21,672 nt of DNA from a virus. Shown here one piece after another: positions 1 through 11,220 of the stretch. The notes under the pieces are model-generated. The model did no database searches and was not told where the DNA came from. It saw nothing but the letters and a program-made list of their open reading frames with translations. A program made the position numbers and the translations under genes. The stretch lies in the IMG/VR virus record IMGVR_UViG_3300027704_000190, positions 1 through 21,672 of that record; one strand, given 5' to 3'. Within the stretch, counting starts at the first letter, position 1; each line of letters starts with the position of its first letter.

Positions 1-2231
1 GTCCAAGTCCCCTCCTCATAGTCATCCAGCTTATTAGCCGCCCCAGTGCCGCCAAGGTATACACCGCCAGAGAGGTAGAGGTCTTTGAAGCGAACACCTG
101 ATGCCCCAAGGTCAATAGCATTATCAGCAACAGCAATGGTTCCGCTATTGTTTTTTGCAGGGTAAAGTATTGGGGCATTGCCATTAAAAACAAGAGCCGA
201 ACCTCCGCTGGTAGGGGCTGCTATATACACACCACTGTTACCAAAAGCGCCTATACTCCCCACAGCAGAGCCAGATTTGTATAGCTTTATTATATCACCA
301 GCTGATGATAGACGATTAAGGTTCATGCTTTCCGCACCATTTCGGGTTACGTTTAAAGCTGATTGATTAAACGCATATAAACCTGCGGTAGTTTGCCAAT
401 TAGTCCCCGAAGTACCCACCAGCAAGTTACCGCTGGCATCCAGTGTCATCGCAGTAGACGTGGCGTTGTCGTCGATGCCTTGTGATGTGAAGGCACCAGC
501 TACAGTCACATTTCCTTGGAACGTACCGCCAGCAGATGCTGATACTGTGTCAGCTACAGTGAAAGACTTAAACGCATACACGTTCAGCAAATCGCCTGTT
601 GCAGCACCAGAGCCTAAGACTACAGACGTTCCGTTAGAAGCAGTGAAGTCAGACGGATCAAGGATAACACCGTTCATCACGACCTGTAGATTACCAGTAG
701 TATATCCCAGTGTTGCGCTGTTATCGTCAGAACCCGTGAATGTAGTCTGAGCATTTGTCGCGGTAAACTCATAGAGTATCAGTGATGCCGTGCCAGCAGA
801 GGAAGCTGCAATCCAGTTGGCCCCATCATACACACGCATTTCGTTTGCATCAGAAGAGAAGAACAAAGCCCCCTCGACCAAAGCATTACCATCGTTGTCT
901 ACCGTTGGGCCTGTGCCACTACCTGAGTATCCAGTTTTGCTTCCAAGATACTTATCATCGAAGGAATCAAAGGCAGCAGCAGCCGCAGCAGCAGAGTCAG
1001 CAGAAGCCGTTGCAGATCCCGCAGCAGCAGACGCAGATCCAGCAGCAGCAGTTGCGTTCGCTGGGGCGCTTTGAATCGCAGCAAGGTTGTCAGTGACGTT
1101 TTGAAGGTTCGTTGTCTGACCTGCCACAGTGTTAATGTTTGTACTGTTACCGGCAACCGAAGAAATGTTTGCGGTGTCACCAGCCACAGTGGTGACGTTG
1201 GCTGAGATACCAGCTACAGTCGTGATGTTGCCAGAGATACCCGCCAAAGTATTCATGTTGTTGACGTTGCCAGATGTCCCCAGGGTGTTCATGTCAGAGA
1301 CGACATCAGCAGTACCTAGAGTGTTTAGATCCGATACAGCATCAGCAGTACCAAGTCTTCCGATCTCAGTTGCCTTACCTGCTACAGCGTTGATCTCAGT
1401 AGTATCACCGGCAACCGTATTAATGTTTGTAGAGTTTCCAGCTACAGAGTTGATGTTCGTTGTATTGCCAGCAACCGTAGTTACGTTTCCACTAATGCCA
1501 GCCACAGTTGTGACGTTGCTATCTATACCGGCAACAGTGTTAATGTTAGTCGCATTTCCAGCAACAGAGGTTACGTTGCCAGAGATACCCGCAACCGTAG
1601 TTACATTGCCCGACACACCGGATACCGTAGTAACATTTGCGCGGATCGTGTTGACGTTTGTAATCGCGTCAGTCGCAACCGTACCATCTTGGATCTCAGC
1701 AAGCGTCTTAATATCAGCAGAGATTGCTGCGATGCTATCGACATCACCGATCTCTGGACCTGGCTCTGGATCACCAGTTGTAGCATTAAACCCCAGAACC
1801 GTACCCTTACGGGCGTCTTTCAGTGGAAGCTCAAGGTCTGTGAACACATCACCAGGATTAACAAACAAACCACGACCAAGTTTCTCGTCAAGCTGCTGGG
1901 TCATAATCACGTTACTGTCTAGCTGTTCATTCAAGCTAGAGGCCAGAAGATCACCGGCTGTAACAAAGTCTGTTGTACGGGAAAGCTCACGCCCACCAAT
2001 GATAGTCAAAACATCAGATGCTATGAGAGCAACGCCAAGAGTGACAGATCCGGTGCCATTTGCGTTAATGCTTACCGTGTAATCCGTAGTCAGCGTTAGC
2101 TCCGTAGTCCCCTTGAAGACTGCGATATCACCACTGACTAAGATGTTGAAGGTAAAGGCGTATGGACCTGTTCCAGTATTACCTGTGAACTGAACTCGGC
2201 GCGTTACCGGATTGATTGCAATATCACTCAT
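1..2231 (-). CDS. Tail fibre protein, T7 gp17-type N-terminus, C-terminus cut by window edge
   Basis: Open frame from an ATG at 2231 to the left edge with no stop (743 codons visible). Residues about 1-125 look like the T7-type fibre attachment domain: a beta-rich stretch (YAFTFNILVSGDIAVF, TTDYTVS), then SRTTDF and SLNEQLDSNV; in T7 this part docks the fibre on the tail. Residues 199-374 are decapeptide repeats of the NVTTVAGISG type, probably a trimeric shaft. An Ala/Ser-rich stretch (about 385-420) leads to FDDKYLG (424), DNDGNALVEGALFF (445) and a YTTGNLQVVMNGVILDP module (about 510). The visible end has LDDYEEGTW (735-743), a motif I recall from marine phage fibres, so the receptor-binding tip lies outside the window. 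It follows the 823-aa gene after 40 bp, with a weak GGGA ribosome site. The fibre call is firm; the receptor is unknown. Confidence 0.88.
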   Translation of the reverse strand, partial: MSDIAINPVTRRVQFTGNTGTGPYAFTFNILVSGDIAVFKGTTELTLTTDYTVSINANGTGSVTLGVALIASDVLTIIGGRELSRTTDFVTAGDLLASSLNEQLDSNVIMTQQLDEKLGRGLFVNPGDVFTDLELPLKDARKGTVLGFNATTGDPEPGPEIGDVDSIAAISADIKTLAEIQDGTVATDAITNVNTIRANVTTVSGVSGNVTTVAGISGNVTSVAGNATNINTVAGIDSNVTTVAGISGNVTTVAGNTTNINSVAGNSTNINTVAGDTTEINAVAGKATEIGRLGTADAVSDLNTLGTADVVSDMNTLGTSGNVNNMNTLAGISGNITTVAGISANVTTVAGDTANISSVAGNSTNINTVAGQTTNLQNVTDNLAAIQSAPANATAAAGSASAAAGSATASADSAAAAAAAFDSFDDKYLGSKTGYSGSGTGPTVDNDGNALVEGALFFSSDANEMRVYDGANWIAASSAGTASLILYEFTATNAQTTFTGSDDNSATLGYTTGNLQVVMNGVILDPSDFTASNGTSVVLGSGAATGDLLNVYAFKSFTVADTVSASAGGTFQGNVTVAGAFTSQGIDDNATSTAMTLDASGNLLVGTSGTNWQTTAGLYAFNQSALNVTRNGAESMNLNRLSSAGDIIKLYKSGSAVGSIGAFGNSGVYIAAPTSGGSALVFNGNAPILYPAKNNSGTIAVADNAIDLGASGVRFKDLYLSGGVYLGGTGAANKLDDYEEGTW
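1110..1637 (-). repeat. 30-bp coding repeat array (decapeptide shaft of tail fibre)
   Basis: In the fibre frame this stretch encodes units of pattern N-[VI]-[TN]-[TS]-V-A-G-x-[ST]-x. There are nine nearly continuous decapeptides upstream and four to five downstream. They are separated by a different block (about residues 293-329) built from roughly 12-residue units of the type NTLGTADVVSDM. The DNA copies differ mostly at third codon positions, so the repeat is kept at protein level. A long plus-strand open frame over the same stretch is a by-product of this periodicity. Confidence 0.9.
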
Positions 2232-2271: not shown

Positions 2272-4743
2272 TCAATTTGACTCAAACATGTTCGACAAGT
2301 CTGGGCCTCTTCTTGGCGATGTTTCACCTTTTTTCCACCAATGGTTCTGACCATACTCGCGGCGATACTTTGATTCCAAGCGTCGAGCCTTGGAGCTAAA
2401 GTCTGGATCTGCCCACTTCTTTCCCTGATCAAGCACAAGGCGCTCAAGGGCCAAGCGAGAATACCAAAGGGACGAACCTGGAGTGTAGCGGCCGGCGAAG
2501 CCCAAGAACTCAGACGCAAAATTTGTATCTTCACCCTTTCCCGCTTCGATTAAATTACCAACTGTTAGTTTTCTTGCGTCATTGGCAAATCCGACGACAG
2601 GACCGGCAATAGTTTCCGCTAGCCCTCTGTCATATCTATTAACATCAGAGAATAGGAAGTCACCAAAGATACCAAGGCCACCGCCCTGCATCAACGCAGC
2701 ACCCCAGAACTCCGGCCCCTCCATTGGGCGTGGATCTCTGCCCTTACTCATCTCTTTAAGTTGCAATGCCAGTGCGCCCATGAGCGTAGTGCTTATCAAT
2801 AGATCTGCATAGTAAGCACTTTTTGCCTTTGGACCTGGCTGATTGAGACCGCGCATTATGTGCGTATTGACCAGCGTAACCCCAAAGCCCTTATACATGG
2901 CGAACGATCGCGTAAGCTCACCGGAAATAGTGCCTGGTCTAGTCTCGTCAATTAAGGCGGCACGTCCTCTGATCGAGCTACTGGGGACCGCATAGTTGGT
3001 TTCTGTCTCTACCATCACCAGCAAGCTAGTGGCTAGATCCTGGGCTAGATCCGATCGTATGTCTGTACGCATCTCGATATCTTCAGCCCGAAGAAACGAA
3101 GCACCCTCGTATTCATAGAGGGGAGTTGCTCTTACAATCTCCCACTTATCAGCGCCAATGTTGTAGTGATCCAACGTCCTGCGCATCATTGGATCTAACT
3201 GGTCAAACGTCTTTCCTGCGTTGTCAGCCAGGTTGCCAAGAAACTCCATTCCGAATGCCCACTTTCCCGCGTTAGTCCAAGGGGAAAGTAATGACGCTCT
3301 CATTACGAAGTCAGCTACACGCCGTGTAACTTCTGGGCCGGACAGATCCCCAACGTAGCGCATTTGAGCAGACGCCAAAGTTGACCATGCTTCCGCAGTC
3401 AAACCAAGCCGGACAGCAAGCTTGCCCTTCTCCTCAAGTGAAAGTGGGTTCATAAACTTGAGATAGTTTTGAATCATTTTAGTCTGAGGTAAGCCAACCA
3501 TCGTTCTTGCTATACGGCCAAAATTCGCATCAGTTACAGCAGCTAGTGACGCAGCGCCTAGCTGTGCAGACTGAAGAATCTGCCGAAGACCCGCGAAGGT
3601 GTAGCCAATCTTACTGTCAACAGGCGCATTAATGCTTCCATTCACATTGGAATAAAGCGTGTCTATAGTTGCGCTTGCTTTACGTGCGGCATTCTCAGCA
3701 GCCGCATCACCAGCCGCGTCTTTTTGCAATGTCTGCTTAACGAAGTTGACAGTAGAACTTGGATTAGGGCCGAGAACTTCAAGCAGAGCAATGTCACGAG
3801 ACATCATGTCGATATGCCCCATCATTGCGTCAAACGGATTTGGATTGCCAAACTTCTGCTGGTACTCCATCCAGGCGTCTGCATTTCTAAACACAAAGAA
3901 ACGATGATCTTGGTTTCGGAGCGCCAGTGATTTGTTGCCGGTCATTGTGCCAGGTTTAAGCTTATTGAACCCATCAGAGGTAATTGACTCATGGGAATCT
4001 CTTAGCGCGATCTCCAACTTCTCTGGGGAAAATGACAAGCCGGTTTGCTCATCGACCATTTTCTTTAGGTCGAGACGTTTCGTAATAAACTCTTTCCATT
4101 CGCCATAGCTAACCTGGCGAACCCTCATAGTGTCATGGATCTGAGGTAGCCCCCAATCCAAACGCTTTACAATAGCGCCACCAGCCGCATTAAACCTGGC
4201 ACGAAGATACTCAGATGAAGCCTTCCAAGCTTGAGCCATTTCTCTAGCAGACGTGCTTGTTGTTGAGCCTTCAGAAAAGACCTCGCGAACCATATCTTTA
4301 AGATCCGCTTTGTTTCTAGTTTCACCAACTATGTTACGCTTAAAGGTGGCTAAGAACTCGTCTAGTTTCCGCGTAGCACTTCTCGTAACCGCTTGCTGGA
4401 CCTGGGCAACGCTGTTGAACTTAGATGTTTGATCTTGCTCGAACAGAGCCTTTGCTGCCTCTCCCTTGTTGGCATTGCCTAAAACGGTTTTGTAGTTGTT
4501 GAGATCGTTATTGATCCGCTTCCACGTTACGGCCTGTAGTGCAGCACGGCGCTTTCGCTCTACAGCAATCTTTCTAGCAGCGATCGACGTATCGGCAGCA
4601 GCCTTTGCCGTTGCCGCAGCAGAACCCATCTGCCTGTTATACTGAACCTCTAGCTCATCAAACAAACCGTTGATTTCATTTGCTTGGTCCTGAGTGATAT
4701 CACCAGCCTGGACGCCATCATCTATGCAGCCTTTAAAAGTCAT
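2272..4743 (-). CDS. Large internal virion (ejection) protein, 823 aa
   Basis: The ATG at 4743 overlaps the stop of the 1149-aa gene by ATGA. The N-terminus (about 1-180) is Ala/Lys/Arg-rich and helical, with likely coiled coil. The middle holds FGNPNPFDAMMGHIDMMSRD and IALLEVLGPNP, a block I recall from large phage proteins encoded between tail nozzle and fibre. The C-terminal third has RPGTISGELTRSF (about 600-615), a hydrophobic stretch around 642-661 (LLISTTLMGALALQL) and a Gly-rich amphipathic stretch (GGGLGIFGDFLF). It ends in a basic tail. No catalytic motif was recognised. Position (nozzle, three other internal proteins, this gene, fibre) matches T7 gp16, so a role in the DNA ejection channel is inferred. 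It may belong to the large polyvalent-protein-associated families, but I cannot assign one. It could be the second half of a protein that is single in relatives. Confidence 0.72.
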   Translation of the reverse strand: MTFKGCIDDGVQAGDITQDQANEINGLFDELEVQYNRQMGSAAATAKAAADTSIAARKIAVERKRRAALQAVTWKRINNDLNNYKTVLGNANKGEAAKALFEQDQTSKFNSVAQVQQAVTRSATRKLDEFLATFKRNIVGETRNKADLKDMVREVFSEGSTTSTSAREMAQAWKASSEYLRARFNAAGGAIVKRLDWGLPQIHDTMRVRQVSYGEWKEFITKRLDLKKMVDEQTGLSFSPEKLEIALRDSHESITSDGFNKLKPGTMTGNKSLALRNQDHRFFVFRNADAWMEYQQKFGNPNPFDAMMGHIDMMSRDIALLEVLGPNPSSTVNFVKQTLQKDAAGDAAAENAARKASATIDTLYSNVNGSINAPVDSKIGYTFAGLRQILQSAQLGAASLAAVTDANFGRIARTMVGLPQTKMIQNYLKFMNPLSLEEKGKLAVRLGLTAEAWSTLASAQMRYVGDLSGPEVTRRVADFVMRASLLSPWTNAGKWAFGMEFLGNLADNAGKTFDQLDPMMRRTLDHYNIGADKWEIVRATPLYEYEGASFLRAEDIEMRTDIRSDLAQDLATSLLVMVETETNYAVPSSSIRGRAALIDETRPGTISGELTRSFAMYKGFGVTLVNTHIMRGLNQPGPKAKSAYYADLLISTTLMGALALQLKEMSKGRDPRPMEGPEFWGAALMQGGGLGIFGDFLFSDVNRYDRGLAETIAGPVVGFANDARKLTVGNLIEAGKGEDTNFASEFLGFAGRYTPGSSLWYSRLALERLVLDQGKKWADPDFSSKARRLESKYRREYGQNHWWKKGETSPRRGPDLSNMFESN

Positions 4744-7700
4744 ACTGTGCAGAACTCCAAACGGGTTATCATTGAATCTTCGGCGTCCAGTTGAGCCTTG
4801 AGATCTCTCATCGTCATAGTAGTAGACTCTACCAAGCCTGTTTTCTCATTAAACCTTTGACCGACAGGCACCTCAAGGTCCATATCATCAAATATATCTC
4901 CGGACTTGACATCAGGCGAAGTGATATCTAAATTGGAATCGGAGGTATCATCAATGATATTTGTTAATTGGGACGGTCGTCCTGCTATTTCCACTTCACC
5001 GACAGAGGCCGTGGCTATACTTGAGCCAGGCGGCGCTTGGACACCGGTAGACGGACCAGACGTTTTCAACACAGGCCGTGTAATACCAGACGAAGCAGCG
5101 TTTATGTCTGCATTCGAAGCTACTTTCGGCAAGCTGTCTATGCCAGACAATGATCTAAACGATTGATCTTCGCTTTTTAACGCATTTGCATAAAGCTCTC
5201 TCATTTGCAGGGATAAAGTTTCTGCCTCTGCCGGATCTTTTGCGTTCCGCATCTTATCATAAAGCTTGTGGCCGGTTTCTTGTTTTGCAGCAAGAAGCTT
5301 TGGAGACCATATCTGTATCTCTGAAACAATACCGTTTGGTGTTCTGACCAAAAGCTTGCGATCAAAATATCCCGCTGGTGTGAAATTCCAACCTTCATCC
5401 AATACTTCCGCATCCCGACCAAATCTGGCAACAATAGCGTCAGCGTCTTCTGCCTTATTGATTACAAATCCACCGCGAGAGATATCAGTCATTTGGTTTG
5501 ATGAGGCATAACTCTTGCGCTTCATCTTTTCTCTGGCAGTTTCTACTGCCTTCAAGCCTGGGTTTTTAAATGAAACGCCAAGCTCACCTTCAAGATCAGC
5601 ACCGATTTTAGCAATATAAGATTGTGACTCTTCTGCTAGGGCATAGATATCATCAACAGTCTCTACAGGTTGCCTTGCTTTCAAATCTGCCTCTACTTCA
5701 GCAGGAGTCCGAATAGGAGCCACAGGAGTCGCCTCATCAGCACCGAACATATCTTGCACTAGCTGGTTTGCCTGGCGCTCTGCTGCTATGCCTGTTGGCT
5801 CGTCGAATCCTTCAAGGGCTGGTTCTGCTGTAGCTTCAGATCTAGTGATCTCCGTCGGACCATCGACAGCGCGTCCAACATCGCCAGTTGATAGCCTTTC
5901 GAAATCGCCAGATTCAATTGATCCTCTGATAGCGTCAAGGAATCCGCCTGTGGCCTCGACGTAACTTCCTGTGTCTCTGGCTGTTCTTGCGGCGTCATTG
6001 AGGGCGTCTGAGAGCGGCCCTTTGCGGTTTGCAAGCGTTTGGAGGAGCGCGATCGTTTGGCCATCTGTATCTGCCTTTTTTTTGTTTACGTCCTTAACTA
6101 AGACATTGCCTTCAGCTTCCAGGCGTTCTGAGTTACGAACCAGTGTTTCGAATGCCGCTTTGTCACGGCGCAATTCTTTGTATGCTTTATCTAGAATTTT
6201 TGCACGTTCTACAAAATAGCTTTCAGTTACTATCTGTTCGCCAAATAAATCTATTTGCTTTACTTGCTCAAAGTCTGACTCCTTAACTTGCCGAATAATA
6301 GCTTCGGCCTCAAAGGCATTGTCGGGGTTTGACTTCGCTAAAACCGATACAGCAGCAGATTGCAAATCAGGATCATCAATAAGCCTACCAATTATAGCAG
6401 CGTAGTTTGGAGGAATAACGCCGTTTATTACTGCCATAAAAGCATCATCGCCTAAACGCATCATACCTTGTGCTTGCTTAACAACCTGAGATTTAGGTGG
6501 CAAACTATTTATAATATCGGCGCTTATATTAGGATTATTTGTTGCCTCTCTTAAAACTTTAGCAGCATCAATAACAAGCTGTGGATTATAGGTATCCTTA
6601 TCAGCATTGGCGATATTTTTTATTGCCGACTGTACTCTTGACTGTATTGGAGAAACGCCATCAACTTCACGATCTTTGTATGCGTATAGAGTTATTTCCT
6701 GAGAGGGATCTTGTGCCTTGATACGCTTGGCTAAACCCAATCTTTGATGTCCATCAGAAACAACAACGCGACCATCTGCATATTCATAAACAGTAATAGT
6801 GCCAGCAAGATTTTTGTCCCACACTGTATCCTGTAGCCGCTCAGTTACACCAAACTCATCACCACCAGATTTAAACTGAAAGGTTTTAGCATCAATACCA
6901 ATTTCGTCAGGCTCATATTTAAATATAACACCGTCAAGATTATCTGCTCCATTATCAACGAGCGCAAGTTCCTGTTTTTGTTTTTCTAAAATACTTAAAC
7001 GCTGTTTGCCGAATCCATCTTGTATAGATCTGAACTCATCAACTTTAGATTGGTTGAGTTTGTTTTCATCCATTAAATCTTTTATTATCTTACTGTCCTT
7101 TGTAAGATTTGGATCAACGTCAAAAGCATCATTTAACCGATTTTGGATTTTAATACCTTCGGCTTCAGCTACTTTTAATTTGGCATTGTTTGCCAACCAC
7201 TTCTTTTGGTTTTTGTTTAGCTCATCCTGTAATGGAATTGTTCCCTTTATCGGAGAAGAAGGCTCTTCAGACATCCTAGGAACCGTATCTCCCGCCAAAG
7301 CAGCAGTAGCATCAGACAGTCTAGCCTCATGCTCAGACTCAGCCTCGATATTATTCTCTGACCGTAACGGGTTTGACGCCTCGATATCAGCCTGACTTTC
7401 CAAAACATTAACCAGTGCTTCATCTTCTGCACTTAAAGGCTTCTTCATTTTGCCCTTGAGAACGTCCCAGCCCTTCAGCGCCTGGTCGGCAGTCATTCTG
7501 ATACCGGCCCCTGCTGCTGGCATAGCCGCACCAAATGCAGCTTGCATGGTTACGTTTGTAATAAAATCCTCGTAGCTATACTCAAGCCCTAGCTCGTCAT
7601 ACCAATCCTTAACGTCAAGCTCACTTATAGCACCGGAACCAGCGTTTACGGCAGCACTTTGCGCAATATTCTTCCAAAGGGTTTTAGACCATCCGCCAAA

Positions 7701-8189
7701 CGGCATAGTAAGTTGAGTAACAATATCGCCACCACCGGCACCCATACCACCAACAAATCTAGCAGCAGCGGGGAAAAACCCTGGATTGTTACGGGCAAGC
7801 TCTGAAAGCTCGGTTTCCTTTTGTTGAACAAAGCTCTTCATCATTTCGTCTACTGAAGCAGAGTTAATTTCGGATAAGCTTTCTGGAAGGCTCTCCTTAT
7901 TGTTCTGTATGTAGGAATATATTTCGTCGGCTTTCCCGTCATATCGAGAAGACATAGAATCAAATAGCCAAATGGCAGGGTTCTCAAAATCTGCGCCGGT
8001 CTCGTTTAGCTCGTCAATAATTGGAGTCCAAACATCAAGTAGAGTAAACCCCCTGCTGTTAGCACCAGCACCACCAGTGTACTTCATTGCATCGAAGGCA
8101 CCGGTCACGTTTTCCATTAGCGGCCCAGGCGCTTCTGATCTTCCATTCTCAGGTAAGAAGTCTAACATTTCTGGTTTGTCAAAATTCAT
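4740..8189 (-). CDS. Polyvalent internal virion protein with ParB-like and RelA/SpoT-like domains, 1149 aa
   Basis: Starts two bases after the stop of the 857-aa gene, with AGG about 8 nt upstream of the ATG, and overlaps the next gene by ATGA. Residues about 130-235 are rich in Gly/Ala and amphipathic (FVGGMGAGGGDIVTQLTMPF), as in ejection proteins. Residues about 250-420 are a charged linker. At 430-545 lies a DdrB-type ParB-superfamily domain: FQFKSGGDEFGVTERLQ, then VVVSDGHQRLGLAKR (about 480), then a helical part with AIKNIANAD. At 870-995 a RelA/SpoT-like domain shows AREKMKRKSY, MTDISRGGFVI (about 900), AGYFDRKLLVR (about 940), SEIQIW (about 958) and GHKLYDKMR (about 972). Asp, Tyr and Glu matching synthetase active-site positions are present; the His of GYxSxH and the Arg after EIQI are replaced. 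The C-terminus is Ser/Asp-rich and probably disordered. Virion location is inferred from gene order. Enzymatic activity is unproven. Confidence 0.85.
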   Translation of the reverse strand: MNFDKPEMLDFLPENGRSEAPGPLMENVTGAFDAMKYTGGAGANSRGFTLLDVWTPIIDELNETGADFENPAIWLFDSMSSRYDGKADEIYSYIQNNKESLPESLSEINSASVDEMMKSFVQQKETELSELARNNPGFFPAAARFVGGMGAGGGDIVTQLTMPFGGWSKTLWKNIAQSAAVNAGSGAISELDVKDWYDELGLEYSYEDFITNVTMQAAFGAAMPAAGAGIRMTADQALKGWDVLKGKMKKPLSAEDEALVNVLESQADIEASNPLRSENNIEAESEHEARLSDATAALAGDTVPRMSEEPSSPIKGTIPLQDELNKNQKKWLANNAKLKVAEAEGIKIQNRLNDAFDVDPNLTKDSKIIKDLMDENKLNQSKVDEFRSIQDGFGKQRLSILEKQKQELALVDNGADNLDGVIFKYEPDEIGIDAKTFQFKSGGDEFGVTERLQDTVWDKNLAGTITVYEYADGRVVVSDGHQRLGLAKRIKAQDPSQEITLYAYKDREVDGVSPIQSRVQSAIKNIANADKDTYNPQLVIDAAKVLREATNNPNISADIINSLPPKSQVVKQAQGMMRLGDDAFMAVINGVIPPNYAAIIGRLIDDPDLQSAAVSVLAKSNPDNAFEAEAIIRQVKESDFEQVKQIDLFGEQIVTESYFVERAKILDKAYKELRRDKAAFETLVRNSERLEAEGNVLVKDVNKKKADTDGQTIALLQTLANRKGPLSDALNDAARTARDTGSYVEATGGFLDAIRGSIESGDFERLSTGDVGRAVDGPTEITRSEATAEPALEGFDEPTGIAAERQANQLVQDMFGADEATPVAPIRTPAEVEADLKARQPVETVDDIYALAEESQSYIAKIGADLEGELGVSFKNPGLKAVETAREKMKRKSYASSNQMTDISRGGFVINKAEDADAIVARFGRDAEVLDEGWNFTPAGYFDRKLLVRTPNGIVSEIQIWSPKLLAAKQETGHKLYDKMRNAKDPAEAETLSLQMRELYANALKSEDQSFRSLSGIDSLPKVASNADINAASSGITRPVLKTSGPSTGVQAPPGSSIATASVGEVEIAGRPSQLTNIIDDTSDSNLDITSPDVKSGDIFDDMDLEVPVGQRFNEKTGLVESTTMTMRDLKAQLDAEDSMITRLEFCTV

Positions 8190-8190
8190 A

Positions 8191-10764
8191 TTAATTACCT
8201 GACGCTTTGCTTAGATCTACCAGCTTAGAGATATCAAAGAAAAATGGTTTACCATCACTACCCTTAACGTATATCGGGGTTCCGTATGCGTCTTCGTCAA
8301 AGATAATCGCAGCCTTATCGCCACCAGCACTAATAACTTTGAATTTACTATTATTCGATATCATGTTCACCATGCTATCATCTAAGCTTATCCCCGAAAC
8401 TTCAAACGCCATATCGGGGGTAAGACTTGATAGCGCATCCTCAAGATCATCTGGCGTTACCTCCGACGGAAGCAATGTCATTTGGCCTCTAACTTCTTGA
8501 ATGCCGCCATATGATTTTCTGCCATCAGTTTTTACACCGGTAGCCATTTTTATCGCGCTAACCCATTTGTCAGCATTGAAATCTGTTTCTTCACGCGCAA
8601 TATCTGCATAAATTAATTTAGCAGTTGCAAGAACTACTGCCTCTGTCTCAGGCGAGAATCGCAATGCACGAGAAGTCATTTGTTTAAATTCTGGTTCTGT
8701 ATATATATCAGATAATCCAGCAGGTTTATTGCCGGCATTTGTGTACTCAAATCCGCGCAAAGCATGGTTAGCAGCAGTCGGCCTGTCTTCACTCATTAGT
8801 GCGCCAATTCCAGCAAGCTCAGGAGTGGTCTTTGATATCTCAGCAAGCATATCAGGCGTAGCAGAACCAGCGCCATCGACTAATCCGCCAAGAAACAGCA
8901 TGACTTTAAGTCTGTGAGACGTATGCTTACTCGGATCACTGCCAGGCATAGTCCCAGCAGCGCCTCCAGATTGAAGAAACTCTGTAAGTAAATCCCGTTC
9001 CTGAGCGGTAAAATACTTAGGTTCAATACCGTATCTAGATGCAATGATTTGTGCGTCAGCCACACGCTTCTTTATATTAGCCGTGACATCAGGATTTTCT
9101 GGAGTAGGAAGTATTGCATCTATTTGCACCGTGTTGTTGTTTGAGTCCTTAACGACAACTTGCATTGCATACGTCACGGGATCATTAGCAAGCTGGGTCT
9201 CCATGTTATTTAGCATTTTCTCAGCAAGATTTAATTGCTTTAGCTCGATAGCGGTATTTACACCCTCCTCCCGCAATCCGGAAAGGTATCCAGCAATTTC
9301 GCTTGGAGTGTACCCTCGAAGACGGTCTCCAAGCAGATTGGTTTTGATCAAGGTATTTACTTCGTCTTGAAAACCATCAATTAAAGAATCTGGTATATCG
9401 TCAAGATCATAAAGAAGTTTTTCTATAGCGAGTTGATCTACAGATATTCCCTGGTCAACAACATCTTGAAGGGTTTTAAGCTGTGCGCCGGCAGCATCTA
9501 TTTTAGGTTGAAACTCCGCTTTTTGCTCAGTTGCTGCGTTTTTAATACTCTTGTTTGCAGCAGTTAAATAAGCCTGTGCGACTTGCAGGGTTTCAGCTTC
9601 GAGAAGTGTATCAATGCCAGAACCACCCATTCCAGTGATACCTGATTTAAGATTATTAACCTCTGACGCCAATTCTTCAACATTCATCTTTCGATAGGTT
9701 GCAGCGTTTTCAGCATTGAACTCTAATTCAGCTAGAGCGGCTCTAGCACCAGCACCCTGTTCTCCCAGGTTATCAGCACGTTCTTGGAGATCAGCGATTT
9801 CCTTTGGGGATGGGTTTCCGCCTTTGGCAAGCAATGTCTCTAATTCGTTTACAGATGAAACGATTGAATTGCTCTCACCTCTAGTGACTTGCAAAGACGA
9901 ATTATAATCAGCGTTTAAAGATTTACGAACACTTTGAGTTTGAGTTAAAGACATACCAGGGAGAGCCATAGTCTCCATGTCAGTTAAAACCCTTTGCTTT
10001 TCCTCTAATGGCGCAGTGTTGAAATCATAAGTTAGCTTCTCTCGATAAGCCGCATTAAATGTTTTCTCATAAAAATCGTTTGCTTGCTTTTCAGTAGCGC
10101 CCATGCCGCGAAGCAAATCTGCTTCAGCCGCAATGCTTTCGCCCAACTTCTCTACAGTCATTCCTGGCAAGATTGCATCGGCTAAGGTACTTTTAAACGA
10201 ACGGTCGGCAGCGTTCGCTCTTTTAGTAGCTTGACGCTGGGCTTGCAGCTTAACGTAATAGTTTGAATACCTCTCAGTCGCCTTACCAGTAGCCCCCTCT
10301 AGGTTCACCTTTAAAACAGAAGAAGCGGCAGGATCTATCACCCGCAGCGATTCCGAATAACCATCAGTAACGTCTGCTAGTTGCGCTTGAACAGTAGAAA
10401 ACGCGGTTCCACTCTTTTCAGCTTCAGTTAAAATTCTACTGATTTCTATTTCAGCAGCGTTCTGAACTTCAGCAACAGCAACACGACTACCCAAAGCATA
10501 TGCTGCTTTGTCAGCGATAGTACGCGGGCCACCCCTTTTATCAATATCACCAAGTGTAGCAATCGCGCCCTCTTCTTGAACACGCTCTTCGCCACGCTCA
10601 ACAGCCCTTTCACCGGCCTTCTGAAACGCAAAGTTAGACATACGGTTTAGTTGCTGAGAAAGGTTCTGAGAAAGAGAAGCCTGTTCTCGTGTATCTGCAA
10701 AATCAAGGTTTTGTGGTTGACGGGTTCTTACACCAAGTTTTTGATATCGTGGAAGCTGTGCCAT
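8191..10764 (-). CDS. Internal virion protein, T7 gp15-like position, 857 aa
   Basis: The ATG at 10764 is preceded by AAGG with 7 nt spacing, nine bases after the stop of the 148-aa gene. The N-terminus (MAQLPRYQKLGVRTRQPQNL) followed by long Gln/Glu/Ala-rich helical stretches is typical of podovirus ejection proteins. Residues about 300-450 look largely coiled-coil. The C-terminal 170 residues include the pattern GVKTDGRKSYGGIQEVRGQ and a terminal beta segment (GTPIYVKGSDGKPFFFDISK), which I recall from the ends of other phage internal or ejection proteins. Length is comparable with T7 gp15 (747 aa), the middle of the three ejected core proteins. No lytic transglycosylase motif is visible. 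The function is inferred from order and composition, not from a catalytic signature. Confidence 0.72.
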   Translation of the reverse strand: MAQLPRYQKLGVRTRQPQNLDFADTREQASLSQNLSQQLNRMSNFAFQKAGERAVERGEERVQEEGAIATLGDIDKRGGPRTIADKAAYALGSRVAVAEVQNAAEIEISRILTEAEKSGTAFSTVQAQLADVTDGYSESLRVIDPAASSVLKVNLEGATGKATERYSNYYVKLQAQRQATKRANAADRSFKSTLADAILPGMTVEKLGESIAAEADLLRGMGATEKQANDFYEKTFNAAYREKLTYDFNTAPLEEKQRVLTDMETMALPGMSLTQTQSVRKSLNADYNSSLQVTRGESNSIVSSVNELETLLAKGGNPSPKEIADLQERADNLGEQGAGARAALAELEFNAENAATYRKMNVEELASEVNNLKSGITGMGGSGIDTLLEAETLQVAQAYLTAANKSIKNAATEQKAEFQPKIDAAGAQLKTLQDVVDQGISVDQLAIEKLLYDLDDIPDSLIDGFQDEVNTLIKTNLLGDRLRGYTPSEIAGYLSGLREEGVNTAIELKQLNLAEKMLNNMETQLANDPVTYAMQVVVKDSNNNTVQIDAILPTPENPDVTANIKKRVADAQIIASRYGIEPKYFTAQERDLLTEFLQSGGAAGTMPGSDPSKHTSHRLKVMLFLGGLVDGAGSATPDMLAEISKTTPELAGIGALMSEDRPTAANHALRGFEYTNAGNKPAGLSDIYTEPEFKQMTSRALRFSPETEAVVLATAKLIYADIAREETDFNADKWVSAIKMATGVKTDGRKSYGGIQEVRGQMTLLPSEVTPDDLEDALSSLTPDMAFEVSGISLDDSMVNMISNNSKFKVISAGGDKAAIIFDEDAYGTPIYVKGSDGKPFFFDISKLVDLSKASGN

Positions 10765-10773
10765 ATTCTAACC

Positions 10774-11220
10774 TTACCTTAATTGTCCGACAGAGTAAGC
10801 AGCAGAACCAAGAGTGGCAGCGGCACTAACATTGGCACTTAATTGAGCGGTTCGCCCTGCGGATCTATAAATGCCAGCTTGTTGAGTAGCTTGCCCGATA
10901 GCAAGAGCCGCGTTATCTTCCGCAATTTGCGCTTCCGTTACGCCTTGTGACGTTGCATACATTGCGACTGTCTGGGCAGATCCAGATGCAGGATCAACAC
11001 CACCGGCACCGGCCCTTGCTATAATTGCTGCAAGCGTTTGATTTAGGTTTGCAAGAGCATCTGCACCTTGCTGCTTGTAAGCAATAGCCTCCGCTCGACC
11101 CTTTAGATCTGCCTGTTGTGCTTGTTGCTCGTAACCAGCCCGTTGCGCTTTTCCCGCTTGAACCTGACTCGCCGCACCGGCAACCGAAGTTACCGCACCA
11201 ACCACTGCCATTGCTTCCAT
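10774..11220 (-). CDS. Internal virion protein, T7 gp14-like, 148 aa
   Basis: Small Ala/Gln-rich helical protein between the nozzle and the 857-aa gene. The N-terminus is a hydrophobic small-residue segment (AMAVVGAVTSVAGAASQVQA), followed by a polar helix (RAGYEQQAQQADLKGRAEAI) and a second small-residue stretch near the C-terminus (LSANVSAAATLGSAAYSVG). This composition and order match the gp14-type core protein that forms the outer-membrane part of the T7 ejection channel. Two starts are possible: ATG 11220 (used here, AAGG very close upstream) or ATG 11211, which would shorten it by three residues. The call rests on position and composition. Confidence 0.68.
   Translation of the reverse strand: MEAMAVVGAVTSVAGAASQVQAGKAQRAGYEQQAQQADLKGRAEAIAYKQQGADALANLNQTLAAIIARAGAGGVDPASGSAQTVAMYATSQGVTEAQIAEDNAALAIGQATQQAGIYRSAGRTAQLSANVSAAATLGSAAYSVGQLR

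Follow-up and report, generated by a model that had tools for sequence, protein, structure and literature searches.

An exchangeable enzymatic cassette in a ParB-RSH protein encoded in the ejection-gene cluster of marine podoviruses

What does a protein with a ParB-like and a RelA/SpoT-like domain do among the late genes of a virus? The question is raised by a 21,672-base virus contig (IMG/VR record IMGVR_UViG_3300027704_000190; hereafter the window, meaning the whole stretch of DNA analysed), which represents a podovirus late region, arranged as a gene-dense operon on the minus strand. The open reading frame at 4740-8189 (minus strand, ATG start) encodes 1149 amino acids and contains every motif that an earlier note, made from the letters alone, had quoted; it also has the polyvalent-type architecture proposed there, with ParB-fold and RelA/SpoT homologue (RSH)-fold domains in one protein encoded among virion late genes. 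The virus carrying this ParB-RSH gene is a marine podovirus. The feature overlooked by the note is that the RSH domain is one among several interchangeable cassettes. Since in close relatives the slot variably holds one of two RSH types (RSH-1 and RSH-2), a zeta-like kinase or nothing at all, the slot resembles an injected weapon that can be exchanged, and we consider it rather probable that the gene encodes a protein of the ejection cluster whose toxin-like effector can be swapped and reaches the host as infection begins.

Cassette exchange at a single slot

Relatives were collected by scanning viral contigs with the conserved middle region of the protein, which found 428, of which 80 were kept; no named phage was found to carry a family member with an RSH cassette. 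Alignment of the window with its closest relatives gave matching proteins with two unrelated-looking C-terminal domains, and the DNA identity with L002, L004, L125 and L127 drops sharply at 5725-5734 and at about 4886-4958. These breaks, together with the census of cassettes, delimit an exchangeable effector cassette at residues ~820-1078 (4959-5733, minus strand). It is flanked on its 5' side by a conserved helical linker (residues ~641-819; 5734-6269, minus strand), in which the window keeps 85% DNA identity to the zeta-bearing L125 up to 5734, and on the other side by a conserved C-terminal tail of about 72 residues (1078-1149; 4740-4958, minus strand), which is kept whatever the cassette. 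Among the 80 relatives, the slot holds RSH-1 in 28, a Zeta_toxin kinase in 28 and RSH-2 in nine; eleven have no cassette and an intact reading frame, and in the last four, left unassigned, the slot is cut off.

The zeta cassettes match Zeta_toxin (PF06414) with E from 4.6e-21 to 9e-17, and their GPPAxGKS P-loop is invariant (26/26). The RSH-2 model folds as an alarmone synthetase (pLDDT, the predicted local distance difference test, 88.6), with Z of 15.1 to SAS2, 15.0 to SaEAS and 12.7 to Tas1, and a profile comparison of RSH-1 with RSH-2 (hhalign, 95.9%, E 6e-9) identifies the two as homologous. On a backbone tree of 78 rows the four slot states require 26 changes, against a minimum of 3 and a mean of 38 for shuffled states, so that the slot has been exchanged often, though not at random. 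Pairs of relatives make the exchange visible, with flanks up to 94-98% identical over 10-15 kb and unrelated cassettes between them. Between L127 (zeta) and L138 (RSH-1), identity is 98.1% in the 6,676 bases that precede the slot and 95.9% in the 3,415 that follow it; the window and L002 (RSH-2) have different RSH cassettes between flanks of 10.5 kb (94.1% identity) and 4.4 kb (95.8%); and L149 against L151, as well as L192 against L191, show clean absence versus presence of the cassette. The family thus has a trait of polymorphic toxins, namely a conserved carrier on which the toxin-type domain varies.

Other arrangements were seen within the slot. In two relatives (L051:1757-5452 and L056:2229-5924) an extra domain of ~190 aa (MTVYRVGEV...GEDEVIIRGEVLI), with no Pfam match, is inserted ahead of RSH-1; it may be another effector, and by eye only it is ADP-ribosyltransferase-like. 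In the C-terminal parts of L136, L153, L162 and L201, a second ParB-like segment (VRDGNSTYAIA...) directly precedes a divergent RSH-1, which places a ParB-RSH pair inside the slot.

The RSH-1 domain

The domain that fills the slot in the window, RSH-1, spans residues ~843-1014 (5148-5663, minus strand) and has a Tas1-like pyrophosphokinase fold. When the domain of the window was searched alone with phmmer it matched Tas1 (PDB 6ox6) at E=4e-4, and a profile of the RSH-1 family, built with the viral-contig relatives, matched Tas1 at E=1.8e-9, the next matches being two GTP pyrophosphokinases (0.014 and 0.033). PF04607 (RelA_SpoT) gave no match in the window record, so that the assignment rests on the Tas1-like profile and on the fold. 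In an AlphaFold2 model of the whole protein, built from 27 family rows, the RSH part has a pLDDT of ~75-89 and aligns (VIA-align) with Tas1 at Z 16.8 (2.4 Å over 161 residues), with SAS1 and SAS2 at Z ~16 and with CapRel at 12.5. Profile and model therefore agree with the RelA/SpoT-like domain claimed in the earlier note, and the structure prediction that it had proposed as a check recovered both of the folds it expected.

Position n of our family alignment (A6) corresponds to protein residue n+842, so that K38, K46, D60, R63 and E115 are K880, K888, D902, R905 and E957. The first four are invariant in 28/28 RSH-1 members and E957 in 27/27 with data, very divergent members included, and Y941 is invariant or nearly so. 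The catalytic Asp (Mg), the Glu and the ATP-site Lys align with those of Tas1 (Apk1), which is the closest solved structure in both sequence and fold and has the Lys, Asp, Arg, GY and Glu positions in common with RSH-1. The sequences of the closest pairs (ratio of nonsynonymous to synonymous substitution rates, dN/dS, ~0.07-0.15) bear the signature of purifying selection on RSH-1. By fold and active site, the family is predicted to have the activity of an RSH-fold pyrophosphokinase.

The acceptor side is different. The syn3 acceptor motif is SxH in GTP-using RSH enzymes and GxN in Apk enzymes (PMC12226406). At syn3 of RSH-1, both the guanosine-recognition SxH of canonical (p)ppGpp synthetases and the GxN of the Apk (p)ppApp synthetases are absent, and the motif GYFDRK, a DxK after GY, is invariant in all members. 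With such an acceptor motif the product of RSH-1 is not predictable, and the name (p)ppGpp or (p)ppApp synthetase would be unwarranted. Tas1 itself is a (p)ppApp synthetase delivered by the type VI secretion system, with an immunity protein and the GxN acceptor motif, whereas RSH-1 has DxK. The small alarmone synthetases (RelP/SAS2, SAS1 and the exported SaEAS) share their fold with RSH-1 and RSH-2 (Z 15-16), but are solo enzymes with the canonical SxH that RSH-1 lacks.

These comparisons bear on the possibility that the RSH domain is catalytically dead and serves a core protein as a spacer, whether structural or for condensing DNA. Although the acceptor motif departs from characterised RSH enzymes and the backbone occurs without a cassette in 11/80 relatives, we regard this as very improbable, given that the catalytic Asp, Glu and Lys are invariant across very divergent members, that dN/dS is low and that the kinase found as the alternative cassette is unrelated and keeps an intact P-loop.

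The ParB-type backbone and its gene neighbourhood

The slot is carried by a backbone of which the best recognisable part is a predicted ParB-superfamily fold with the SDGHQRLGLAKR motif and a following part resembling a helix-turn-helix (HTH), at residues ~421-640 (6270-6929, minus strand). With model residues ~420-640 Foldseek returned Caulobacter and Myxococcus ParB, Noc and Spo0J (probability 1.00, best E 5e-4 to 1e-3), and VIA-align of residues 421-636 with ParB/Noc gave Z of about 9.4-10, with a high root-mean-square deviation across the two subdomains and 2.5 Å over 94 residues for the ParB N-domain alone. Residues ~421-636 can thus be modelled as a ParB-superfamily fold plus the HTH-like part, as in the CTP-binding partition proteins ParB and Noc, and by eye the DGHxR of the window protein sits where ParB has GERR; in contrast to ParB/Noc, the window protein has no known ParA partner or partition role and no sequence-profile match. 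A profile search of the PDB with the ParB region matched no solved ParB, so that the fold is visible in the model only, and the profile check suggested in the earlier note succeeded for the RSH domain (Tas1) and not for this region. Likewise, of the DdrB-type ParB-like domain claimed there, the ParB fold holds and the DdrB subtype does not: PF18763 (DdrB-like ParB) has no match in the window protein, and hhalign against a true DdrB-ParB gave a probability of 0.4%, for which the subtype was rejected. This also separates the protein from the DdrB-ParB polyvalent proteins of Iyer 2017 (PMC5512222).

A true DdrB-ParB (PF18763, E=1.5e-32) is found together with RSH-1 in one protein at the same gene slot of a Pleomorphomonas koreensis prophage, and a Bradyrhizobium contig has a window-type DGHQR ParB region and RSH-1 within one frame. 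The ParB region at 6510-6953 exists in two allele groups, the window with L004 and L002 with L003, and across these four records all four combinations of ParB allele group and RSH cassette are seen.

The remaining backbone is helical. The N-terminal region (residues 1-300; 7290-8189, minus strand) is conserved family-wide by alignment, and by hydropathy and the model its helices near residues 139-230 are Gly/Ala-rich and mildly hydrophobic. A helical insert at residues ~316-414 (6948-7244, minus strand) is present in the window, L002, L003 and L017 and missing from L004 and most relatives, and forms a second presence/absence module of the protein; its likeness to IpaB and other helical proteins was set aside as common helical packing. 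The whole protein gave no meaningful match in Pfam, NCBIfam or PADLOC. Residues 431-734 matched the phrog_21 'portal protein' profile at the far C-terminus of its 1362 positions, which is not evidence of a portal and is probably a match to a fused ParB/helical part.

On the minus strand, the genes follow the order TerL, head-tail connector (PF12236, E=8e-96), scaffold, capsid region, two tail tube genes, small internal virion protein, an 857-aa gene, the ParB-RSH gene, a virion structural protein and a tail fibre. The nearest relative of TerL is that of Methylophilales phage MEP301 (68%). The small internal virion protein (10774-11220, minus strand) matches phrog_418 at E=2.7e-6. The 857-aa gene upstream of ParB-RSH (8191-10764, minus strand) takes by gene order the position of a large ejection/core protein; it has no PHROG match, and its counterpart in Pleomorphomonas (L115) has an SLT transglycosylase match (E=6.7e-16). 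Downstream, the stop codon of ParB-RSH overlaps by 4 bp the gene of an 823-aa virion structural protein (2272-4743, minus strand; phrog_684, E=1.2e-168). With the 857-aa gene on one side and phrog_684 on the other, the placement between ejection-type genes described in the earlier note is that of a podovirus ejection neighbourhood. The tail fibre gene (3-2231, minus strand; phrog_21412, E=1e-32) runs off the window; it contains many NVTTVAGI/NINTVAG-type repeats, and its length varies among relatives.

Delivery, immunity and relation to described systems

The position of the ParB-RSH gene parallels the internal/core protein block of Salmonella phage SPN1S (eps15-like), which comprises two internal virion proteins, a head protein, an unnamed 600-aa protein, a virion structural protein and a tail spike. 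In eps15 the core is released from the capsid and becomes a tube that spans the periplasm (PMC12391199), and T7 gp16, which binds DNA, is thought to reach the cytoplasm (PMC8954989). Judged from their sequences, RSH domains also occur repeatedly on virion-type proteins, since a phage portal protein encoded in a Rhodoplanes metagenome-assembled genome ends in a C-terminal RSH-1 domain (L118:6543-8519; PF04860 E=7.5e-93) and RSH-2 lies at ~residue 820-935 of polyvalent-type proteins of 2.8-3.1 thousand residues in larger viral contigs (L021-L035), LPD38 being present in both of those scanned (L021 and L029). From the position and from these proteins, by analogy, we infer that the ParB-RSH protein is packaged in the virion core and ejected.

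The protein could instead be made and act late in the infected cell without being ejected, as a moron-like weapon against superinfection or to shut down host metabolism before lysis, its place in the late operon being incidental. The position does imply expression with the late genes, a cell about to lyse would need no linked cognate immunity gene, and the virion location itself comes from gene order; this reading is nonetheless unlikely, because the cassette is embedded in a protein that is conserved, C-terminal tail included, and encoded in an internal/core protein slot, and because a portal protein elsewhere (L118) carries this RSH domain as a fusion.

No linked immunity gene accompanies the cassettes, as paired genomes match outside the slot across their aligned flanks: since L127 and L138 are 96-98% identical in the flanks (6.7 kb and 3.4 kb) and have different cassettes, no immunity gene travels with the cassette. 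In 14 records, we found no HD_4 hydrolase (of the small alarmone hydrolase type) that could be a hidden immunity. An integrase match was present in only one of these 14, so that most of the viruses look lytic, with the caution that the records may be incomplete. Immunity might be superfluous if the host dies in any case, or if the domain passes through the portal in unfolded form and becomes active only once refolded; we offer both as guesses.

For the ejected effector that we favour, the catalysis, the target and the benefit can be proposed as follows. A conserved backbone (N-terminal helices, ParB-fold plus HTH-like DNA- or nucleotide-binding region, and C-terminal tail) would carry one exchangeable enzymatic slot, filled in the window virus by an RSH-fold 3'-pyrophosphokinase. 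Packed in the virion core, the protein would enter the host along with the DNA; its ParB-type part may bind DNA, perhaps with CTP, near the incoming genome, and within the first minutes the RSH part, using host ATP, would pyrophosphorylate the 3'-OH of a nucleotide or of a tRNA end, so that host growth, competitors or a defence would be disabled. The zeta-toxin-like kinase in the slot of relatives suggests that selection favours a change of effector over one product. Related enzymes turn over about 1e5 molecules per minute (PMC12691689). By our own arithmetic, a few copies could suffice, ~six of them giving about 6e5 molecules per minute. Such an amount is comparable to the ATP pool expected in a small marine cell.

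Several points weigh against a toxin-like effector delivered in this way. The occurrence of 11/80 relatives without a cassette shows that it is dispensable. The mean pLDDT of the whole-protein model is only 64. To judge from its sequence, the DxK motif fits neither of the known acceptors, GTP or ATP, and neither (p)ppGpp nor (p)ppApp synthesis would be predicted. The backbone N-terminus has no detected homology to the proteins in the same slot of SPN1S (SPN1S_0018) and MEP301 (gp24), so that ejection rests on gene order, and an enzyme that arrests growth could harm the very phage that introduces it.

A different role for the exchange would be interference with defence or nucleotide signals, in which RSH and zeta cassettes modify the 3'-OH of an immunity (sugar) nucleotide and the exchange tracks the defences of local hosts. 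Both cassette types belong to families of ATP-dependent phosphotransferases with nucleotide-like acceptors, rapid cassette exchange is typical of arms races, and signal interference is proposed for such domains in Iyer 2017 (PMC5512222); we still think it improbable, with no match to known defence families in PADLOC. Under the favoured reading of an injected effector, a more specific proposal can be put forward tentatively: apparently lytic marine podoviruses would have, in a protein of the ejectosome, a polymorphic effector slot without an immunity gene, and each virion would inject one phosphotransferase, from one of two RSH lineages with new acceptor specificity or of the zeta type, that modifies nucleotides or sugar nucleotides of the host as infection starts.

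Parts of this picture are already published. As far as its accessible text goes, Iyer 2017 (PMC5512222) describes polyvalent proteins as multidomain late-gene phage proteins, like that of the window, and lists ParB-superfamily and RelA/SpoT domains, also together; it has DdrB-like ParB with RelA-SpoT in polyvalent proteins of Helicobacter prophages, which contradicts the earlier note's statement that no described virion protein joins the two, and RelA/SpoT as well as a zeta-like kinase on MuF proteins of phages. That text describes mosaicism, whereas the window family has one defined slot whose content (RSH, zeta or no cassette) is exchanged among podovirus genomes that are nearly identical. 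The MuF-Apk2 polymorphic toxins of temperate phages (PMC12226406) likewise have an RSH-fold effector on a virion-type phage protein, but they make (p)ppApp and have the linked immunity genes iapK and aph1, whereas the window family has no linked immunity gene, its cassette is followed by a conserved tail and has DxK instead of GxN, and 13/14 records are without an integrase match. We found no described ejection protein with RSH/zeta exchange in the open-access literature. What we did not find described is the DxK acceptor signature, and a slot in a podovirus ejection-cluster gene whose enzymes are swapped, with no immunity gene, among apparently lytic genomes that are nearly identical.

The family offers a natural experiment on injected phage effectors, in the form of near-identical viruses which differ only in the enzyme, if any, that occupies a single slot. 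Should the protein be ejected, infection itself would directly deliver an alarmone-synthetase-like enzyme, with none of the immunity genes on which polymorphic toxins depend; the unusual acceptor site of the enzyme suggests a product not yet described. RSH enzymes are known as bacterial weapons against phages (CapRel, toxSAS). A phage that brings the same fold to the attack makes it possible to test what pyrophosphorylated nucleotides do in the conflict between phage and host.

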